The position numbers and the translations under genes are program-made. The notes beneath the pieces were generated by a model. It saw nothing but the letters and a program-made list of their open reading frames with translations, made no database searches and was not told the DNA's origin. A stretch of DNA of 49,884 bases from Deltaproteobacteria bacterium. Its GTDB lineage: Bacteria; Myxococcota_A; UBA9160; SZUA-336. This document shows, piece after piece, positions 26,354 to 27,941 of the stretch (its first letter is position 1; each line of letters begins with the position of its first letter). The stretch lies in NCBI GenBank assembly GCA_016875225.1, contig VGRW01000021.1, positions 1 to 49,884 of the forward strand, read 5' to 3'.

Positions 26354-27586
26354 TCAGCGCCCCGCGCGGCGCGGCAGGCGGCGCAACAGGAATGGAAGCG
26401 CGAAGCGCAGCGCCGGCGCGATGCTTCGACCGAGCCATCCGAGGCGCCGAGTCTGCGCGGCCGACGCGAAACGATCGAGCTCCAGTCTGTCGCGGAGATC
26501 GGCGCCGAGCGCCGCGACCGAGCGGTCCAGTGGAATCCCCGTGGCGTCGGCGATCCGAACCATGCGCTCGAAGTTCGACGCAACGGCCGCAGCGTCCACG
26601 AGCCCCGCGGGCCCGAGCGCCGCGCGCACCCGCTCCCGCGCGCGCGAGAGCGCCTGGTCGTCGCGTCCGACCAGCGCCTCGGCGAAGGCGCCGAGCGCCG
26701 GACCGTTCGGGACGAGGCTCGAGCCGGCTTCGTCTCCCGTCGCCACGGCCTCGACGCCGTAGCGTGTGCCGTCGATCTCGCCGCTCGCACGGAGCAGCAG
26801 CGCGTGGGAGCTGGTTCAGTAGAAGCACTCGCGAAGCGCGGAGACGCGCGCGGCCAGGAATTCCGCCTGCGCGCGCGAGAGCGTTCCCACTCTCGCTCTC
26901 GGGTCCGGGACGAGCTCCATCGGCAGGTAGTGCGCGCGGCTCAGATCCGCGAGCGTGCGGACCTCGTCGGGCACGAGGCTCAGTGCGCGGATCACGTTTC
27001 CCGTCGCTCCCCGGCGCCAGAGATCGGCTTCGCGTCCGGTCGCGCCGAGCGCGGGGATCATCGGCACCCAGGCTCCGTCGTCGCGCGCCTGGCTCGGTCG
27101 GTAGTGCGACGGCTCGCCGGCGAGCGGCAGCGGAAGCGCGTGCTTTGCCACGCCGATCGCGCGACAGAAGGCATCGATGCTGACCACCGTCACGACGACA
27201 CCGACGAGCTCGACGTACGCGCCGCTCTCGAGACCGGCCGCTTCGAGAGTTTCGAGCCAGCGCTTCGAGAGCCGGCCGGGGTCGCCCGCGATGCGGTGCG
27301 CCGCCTCGACCGCCGCCGCGTCGAGCGGTGCGGCGGCCGCGTGCTCGCCCGGGACCGCGCCCGGCGCGATCGCGTCGCGCCGCGCCGCGCAGAGCGCGCA
27401 GCTCGCTTCGCTCCGCACCTCGCGCGCGATCGCCACGCGCTCCGCGCCGGTCCACCAGGTCCCCGGCGAGGCGAGCCGGAGCCATGCACGCCGATGCGCC
27501 GCCGGAAGGTCCGTGCGCACCGCGACCTCGGCTCGCGAGTAGTCGATCGGATCCGCCGCTGTTCCTCGCGCGTCGATGGTCTTCAT
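26354..27586 (-). CDS. AhpD-like (carboxymuconolactone decarboxylase fold) selenoprotein with in-frame TGA as Sec
   Basis: Read from ATG 27586, 256 codons end ...RECFY, then TGA (26818-26816), then 153 sense codons in the same frame beginning TSSHALLLRASGE. The joint gives E242-x11-C254-F-Y-U257-T-S-S-H261, exactly the spacing of the AhpD catalytic motif E-x11-C-x2-C-x3-H, with Sec in place of the second (resolving/attacking) Cys. The downstream part (NFERMVRIADATGIP) is the normal C-terminal helix of the fold. A SECIS-like hairpin follows the TGA. The N-terminal half carries another CxxC (C63, C66). Total 410 residues. Likely role: thiol/selenol peroxidase or reductase, probably fed by the upstream glutaredoxin. 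A nonsense mutation or read error is the alternative; Sec machinery is not in this window. Confidence 0.85.
26779..26799 (-). promoter_or_regulatory. Putative bacterial SECIS hairpin for Sec insertion
   Basis: In the mRNA just after the TGA an 8-bp stem forms (UGCUGCUC... paired with GAGCGGCG, including two G-U pairs) closed by the 5-nt loop CGUGC. The loop starts 24 nt after the TGA and has G at its second position followed by U. Known bacterial SECIS elements have a short apical loop with an early G about 16-37 nt from the UGA. Fit is good, but hairpins are common in GC-rich RNA. Confidence 0.6.
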
Positions 27587-27606
27587 CGCGCAGGCGCGCG
27601 GGGCGC

Positions 27607-27873
27607 TCAGCCCCGGTTCGCGACCTCGGTCTCGAGGTAGCGGATGATGTCGAGCGATTCGTGCATCCAGCGCACGCCGCCGCCGGGCAGCTCGATGCGC
27701 AGGCACGGCACCGTCTGTCTGCCCGTCGCCTGCACCAGCTCCCGCCGACGGTCGGGATCGAGCTCGATGTCTCGCAGCTCGAGCTGGAGGTCGAGACGGT
27801 TCAGGGCGGAGCGCACGCGCCCGCAGTAGGAACAGCCGTCGAAATGGTAGAGCGACAGATTCGGAGCCTTCAT
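27607..27873 (-). CDS. Glutaredoxin family protein
   Basis: An 88-residue thioredoxin-fold protein. It begins LSLYHFDGCSYCGRVRSAL, so the redox pair is C-S-Y-C. The cis-Pro is in RQTVPCLRI, and the end (HESLDIIRYLE) is the usual glutaredoxin C-terminus. Its stop is 20 bp before the ATG of the AhpD-like selenoprotein, on the same strand. The pair is probably an operon, and the glutaredoxin is a likely reductant for the selenoprotein. The start ATG at 27873 has no strong competitor. Confidence 0.9.
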   Translation of the reverse strand: MKAPNLSLYHFDGCSYCGRVRSALNRLDLQLELRDIELDPDRRRELVQATGRQTVPCLRIELPGGGVRWMHESLDIIRYLETEVANRG

Positions 27874-27884
27874 CGCCTCCTCGG

Positions 27885-27899
27885 CGACCCGTAGGGTCG
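27885..27899. promoter_or_regulatory. Inverted repeat between grx-selenoprotein operon and divergent lipoprotein gene
   Basis: CGACCC, spacer GTA, GGGTCG: a perfect 6-bp inverted repeat in the 68-bp space between two divergent starts. No gene is transcribed into it from outside, so it is unlikely to be a terminator. It could be an operator or a 5' leader hairpin of the glutaredoxin mRNA. Confidence 0.35.
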
Positions 27900-27941
27900 G
27901 GCACGCGGAGCTTACTTCAGCCGGAGCGGGTAAGGTACCGG

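Follow-up and report, generated by a model that had tools for sequence, protein, structure and literature searches.

Selenoproteins that are related to AhpD and carry a CxxU motif have been described before. The 2005 Sargasso Sea selenoproteome reported 'hypothetical protein 1' as a new selenoprotein with CXXU and of unknown function (PMC1088965), and a 2026 review lists an 'AhpD-related protein (hypothetical protein 1, Sargasso Sea metagenome), NF041238, CxxU' (PMC13188914). NF041238 is the NCBIfam model 'AhpD_rel_CFYUT, alkylhydroperoxidase-related (seleno)protein'; a search of the literature on its members found no biochemical data. Two further systems are relevant. In AhpD of M. tuberculosis the proton relay consists of Glu118, Cys130, His132, Cys133 and His137 (PMC3141380), and Sestrin2 is built of two AhpD-like halves, of which one is catalytic (PMC4674687).

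The window analyzed here is a stretch of 49,884 nucleotides from the genome of a Deltaproteobacteria bacterium (3.87 Mb, 97.8% complete). The original prediction, made from the letters alone, held that an in-frame TGA in this window hides a single AhpD-like CxxU selenoprotein. Reading frame, motif, homologs and sel genes all agree with this; the proposed interval was also right, and the strand, which had not been given, is the minus strand (Table 1). With TGA read as Sec the gene encodes 410 residues, the only internal TGA being codon 257 and the terminal TGA codon 411. The translation contains E242-x11-C254-F-Y-U257-T-S-S-H261, an exact match to the E-x11-C-x2-U-x3-H spacing that had been proposed for residues 242–261. 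We consider it highly probable (about 0.93), from sequence evidence, that codon 257 specifies selenocysteine and that the protein belongs to the NF041238 family. The Sec assignment is made because four lines of evidence agree, namely conservation, machinery, distribution and a SECIS element; these, like the fold prediction, can be read from the sequence.

Membership of the family was assessed with the NCBIfam model. The match to NF041238 was strong (E = 3.6e-137, 457.4 bits against a cut-off of 175) and aligned query residues 23–375 with the whole model (positions 1–357), and all 62 members of our working alignment matched it as well. The protein is thus a further member of a catalogued family. 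The proposal that this layout, two domains in 410 residues plus a CxxC near the N terminus, could be novel does not stand, because the N-terminal region with its CxxC falls inside the model, and the family is already listed in the 2026 review. Scores were below the cut-offs for plain AhpD proteins (TIGR01926, 39.5 against 81.8; PF02627 (CMD), 16.3 against 23). From its fold and active-site geometry the protein is predicted to work like an AhpD domain, while being classed in a family of its own. Several genomes carry two or three family copies. In three loci two copies are separated by no more than a few kb; L062 and L037 have them on opposite strands, and in L065 they are in tandem.

To follow codon 257 across the family, 111 sequences were aligned. 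Position 257 was TGA, and not TGC or TGT, in all 110 homologs with residues there, and Cys in none of them; nor did a search among full-length members find any Cys-containing homolog. Retrieval was not biased toward TGA, as the query had Cys at 257 and no search peptide spanned the motif. The homologs came from MAGs labeled Myxococcota/Deltaproteobacteria, Gamma- and Alphaproteobacteria, Acidobacteria, Actinomycetota, Chloroflexi and Binatota, and the best named relatives suggest a Myxococcota-like source for the window. Among the NF041238 copies listed as over the cut-off in 57 genomes of the window's phylum, each had one TGA, and in another class, that of an Acidimicrobiales MAG (locus L106), TGA was found in 23 of 23 copies from 19 genomes. 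Because the same codon is TGA across the homologs, the genomes of the phylum and another class, the internal TGA is not a chance occurrence.

Looking for selA, selB, selC and selD alongside the gene's own genome sequence had been proposed as a check on the prediction, and all four were found in that genome: selA (513 bits), selB (290 bits), selC (tRNA-Sec, 75.6 bits, with a TCA anticodon) and selD (G000:C36:17696-18622, L128). This selD is itself a selenoprotein gene, with UGA/Sec in GGGU-ARK. A selA match was present in 56 of 57 genomes carrying the AhpD-related gene, compared with 83 of 135 non-carrier relatives, although the genomes are related and these counts are not independent. The sole carrier without a match (G044) is an 85% complete draft. 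The one genome of the same genus as the window's (G001, 95% complete) has neither selA nor the AhpD-related gene, suggesting that the two were lost together, with the Sec trait, within the genus.

A hairpin, CUGCUC-CGUGC-GAGCGG, follows the in-frame UGA. In the alifold consensus of 99 distinct homologs it spans 18–34 nt after the UGA, with a six-pair stem starting at nt 18, and the second base of the apical loop was G in 99 of 99. Compensatory covariation was slight, as the core stem pairs barely vary; because this leaves too little variation for a covariation argument, the SECIS claim is carried by a codon-constraint test. Here codon choice in each of 184 conserved columns was compared with the gene's own codon usage, and the five most synonymously constrained columns were codons 264, 265, 266, 267, and 268. 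The Leu265 codon, for example, was CTC in 98 of 99 homologs. When the region was scanned with Rfam, no family passed the threshold and none of SECIS type was matched. From its position, consensus structure and constraint, we assign the hairpin as a predicted bacterial SECIS element.

Table 1. Coordinates of the selenoprotein gene, its sites and its neighbors (window positions unless a locus is named).
Feature	Position	Strand	Evidence or remark
AhpD-related (CFYUT family) selenoprotein CDS	26354..27586	(-)	410 aa; ATG at 27586; terminal TGA 26354-26356; translation and NF041238
N-terminal AhpD-like domain, residues 1-192	27011..27586	(-)	AlphaFold2 pLDDT 93 alone; Foldseek
N-terminal C63-x2-C66	27389..27400	(-)	Position matching CxxU of C-terminal half; hhalign
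Glu242, predicted proton-relay residue	26861..26863	(-)	Conserved 111/111
Cys254, predicted resolving Cys of CxxU	26825..26827	(-)	Conserved 110/110
In-frame UGA codon 257, read as Sec	26816..26818	(-)	TGA in 110/110 aligned homologs; selA, selB, selC, selD in genome
His261, predicted proton-relay residue	26804..26806	(-)	Conserved 110/110
Predicted bacterial SECIS hairpin	26781..26797	(-)	Alifold consensus and codon constraint
Glutaredoxin/GST_N-like ORF, 88 aa, CSYC	27607..27873	(-)	20 bp upstream; Pfam GST_N_3 3.9e-16, Glutaredoxin 1.5e-12
Prx/thioredoxin-like selenoprotein gene	L074:570-1259	(+)	
Prx/thioredoxin-like selenoprotein gene	L078:3386-4075	(+)	
Prx/thioredoxin-like selenoprotein gene	L085:5235-5924	(+)	
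Prx/thioredoxin-like selenoprotein gene	L102:5432-5962	(+)	

The AlphaFold2 model, made with 62 homologs, was almost all-helical with a pLDDT of 94. When the whole model was submitted to Foldseek, the top PDB matches were the AhpD-like, peroxidase-related structures 6k40, 2prr, 3c1l and 2oyo, with modest E-values (5.5e-3 and worse), and sequence searches put the match to peroxidase-related AhpD structures on the C-terminal half. The N-terminal half alone also gave top Foldseek matches that were all AhpD or peroxidase-related (TM 0.46–0.50, best E 0.016). Its sequence matched no family in Pfam, and a PDB profile search had 2oyo as its weak best match (E = 0.004), with chance matches to chaperonins after it. 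Alignment of the N-terminal against the C-terminal half in hhalign placed C63-x2-C66 on C254-x2-U257 with the later helices in register; this match was weak (probability 27%), and for that reason the fold search is taken as the basis of the tandem claim. Judged from the models, two AhpD-like domains in tandem most likely make up the protein, the C-terminal one with an intact active site. Cys was found at each of positions 63 and 66 in 98 of 111 sequences. Position 70, where the catalytic His of the N-terminal half would fall, was K or R in 89 of 111. A second peroxidase site in this half is therefore unlikely, though the Cys pair is mostly kept.

Within the C-terminal half the residues of the AhpD-type active-site geometry (E242, C254, U257 and H261) were invariant in the aligned homologs. 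The chemistry that follows, with its substrate and reductant and what the N-terminal CxxC would do, is inferred. Reduction of organic hydroperoxides, perhaps of lipids, is the function that we somewhat favor. UGA 257 is most probably decoded as Sec by SelA, SelB, SelC and SelD, directed by the SECIS hairpin just 3′ of it. The Sec257 selenolate, activated by a relay of Glu242, Tyr256 and His261, would attack the peroxide, Cys254 would resolve the resulting selenenic acid to give a Cys-Sec bridge, and the bridge would be reduced by a thiol donor or pass its electrons to a Prx-like partner. Attack by Sec followed by resolution by Cys is the order of events in selenoperoxidases generally.

Genomic context was surveyed for partners. 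Clustering of ORFs gave no family-wide conserved neighbor; most of its components consisted of shadow ORFs on the antisense strand and of close relatives. The glutaredoxin-like ORF upstream is possibly co-transcribed with the selenoprotein gene; it was rejected as a conserved partner, since it lies near the gene in the window's own locus and in no other. Pfam searches on 66 same-strand neighbors gave a mixed set, the commonest families being metallo-beta-lactamase (4), AhpC-TSA (3), SDR (3) and AMP-binding (3). One of the 66 matched Pfam SelA. In a Pseudomonadales MAG the AhpD-related gene is followed, after 172 bp, by a selA-like ORF (L068:1738-3237 (+)).

This mixture (acyl-CoA metabolism, SDR, metallo-beta-lactamase) is not one of stress genes, and it would fit an enzyme in which Sec is real but whose CxxU reduces an electrophile other than a peroxide, for example by dehalogenation as in Bmp8, or acts as a general disulfide reductase. 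The AhpD-fold debrominase Bmp8 (6ohi, 6ohj) was indeed among the PDB fold matches, with a probability of 0.94–0.97, but it ranked below the peroxidase-related AhpD structures. The complete Glu/Cys/Tyr/His relay of the AhpD peroxidases is conserved, which also argues against a non-peroxidase, as do the Prx-like selenoproteins adjoining the gene in four loci. We regard such an activity as possible, if on the improbable side.

These Prx/thioredoxin-like selenoprotein genes lie directly upstream and on the same strand in four (L074, L078, L085, and L102) of about 80 loci with flanks. In L074, L078 and L102 the motif U-P-x-C could be read from the sequence itself, and L085 was found by similarity. 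None of the four proteins reached a cut-off in NCBIfam, so there may be no curated model for the Prx-like selenoprotein. A homolog with one in-frame UGA (FFRGHWUPFC) is present in the window's own genome, on another contig (G000:C13:34467-35021, L141). By analogy with AhpC/AhpD, a working pair of an AhpC-like and an AhpD-like protein is plausible. The fuller proposal, in which a Sec-dependent, Sestrin-like tandem AhpD and the Prx-like selenoprotein would form an all-selenium AhpC/AhpD pair, with the N-terminal CxxC relaying electrons to the CxxU, is put forward very tentatively.

The tandem layout also admits a division of labor as in Sestrin, with one AhpD half a peroxidase and the other regulatory or binding, which would make the protein a redox sensor and not a bulk antioxidant. 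Human Sestrin2, in which only one half is catalytic (PMC4674687), could be aligned along almost the entire model (396 columns, TM 0.40–0.44, probability 0.82), but the global superposition was poor (rmsd 12 Å). Retention of CxxC in the N-terminal half, with Lys/Arg at the catalytic His position, is consistent with a sensor, whereas the catalytic half is C-terminal here and N-terminal in Sestrin, and the sequence gives no sign of a ligand or partner. A sensor role is thus doubtful, and hydroperoxide reduction remains the reading that we prefer.

Without readthrough, standard ORF calling gave two ORFs, 26816..27904 and 26354..26746 (130 aa, start at 26746), either side of the TGA, as had been anticipated for standard annotation. 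The same split would be seen if UGA 257 were a true stop, whether in a pseudogene, through a sequencing error or between two genes. However, GC by codon position was 0.80/0.59/0.86 after the TGA compared with 0.77/0.58/0.87 before it, and homology ran on past the TGA in 62 aligned family members. Because codon-position GC matches the upstream part and homology continues, the segment 3′ of the TGA is read as genuine coding sequence. The downstream part continues the protein, as first proposed, and the homolog alignments do not end at this codon, an outcome that had been named as counting against the prediction. The invariant TGA, the post-UGA codons constrained as SECIS and the full sel machinery likewise contradict a true stop, which is very improbable. 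Genome-wide reassignment of UGA, for instance to Trp, has the in-frame UGA alone to recommend it and is hardly credible, given that the same gene ends in TGA, that tRNA-Sec and SelA/B/D are present, and that one UGA is common to homologs of several phyla at the position of the AhpD catalytic Cys.

An automatically split gene is thus, on our reading, one selenoenzyme, and because the UGA was present in each checked copy that scored over the cut-off, the annotation error should be predictable across the family. As Cys never replaces Sec in the 110 aligned homologs, NF041238 offers a good case for what Sec does that Cys cannot. Our additions to the family are the AhpD-like N-terminal half, which gives a tandem, Sestrin-like pair, and the Prx-like selenoprotein upstream in four loci; together, the layout and the adjacent genes provide a testable partner and mechanism.

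Compared with known systems, the protein differs in nothing essential from NF041238, sharing the CFYUT motif and the N-terminal region; its C-terminal tail of about 35 residues past the model is common to close relatives. With TIGR01926 and the AhpD-like structures (6k40, 2prr, 2oyo, 3c1l) its C-terminal half shares the fold and the Glu, Cys, Tyr, second catalytic position and His, whereas TIGR01926-type proteins are single-domain, of about 190 aa, and have CxxC. Glu242, Cys254, Tyr256, Sec257 and His261 have the spacing of the M. tuberculosis AhpD relay, with Sec in place of Cys133, and Tyr256 occupies the middle motif position as in P. aeruginosa PA0269; chain topology and length differ from M. 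tuberculosis AhpD, and a partner like AhpC is here a candidate only. Sestrins likewise have two AhpD-like halves per chain and one complete active site, but their catalytic half is N-terminal with a single Cys, and their C-terminal half has the DD motif that binds GATOR2. In the protein described here the catalytic CxxU lies in the C-terminal half, and we do not file it as a sestrin; kinship with sestrins is visible in the fold and not beyond it in sequence.
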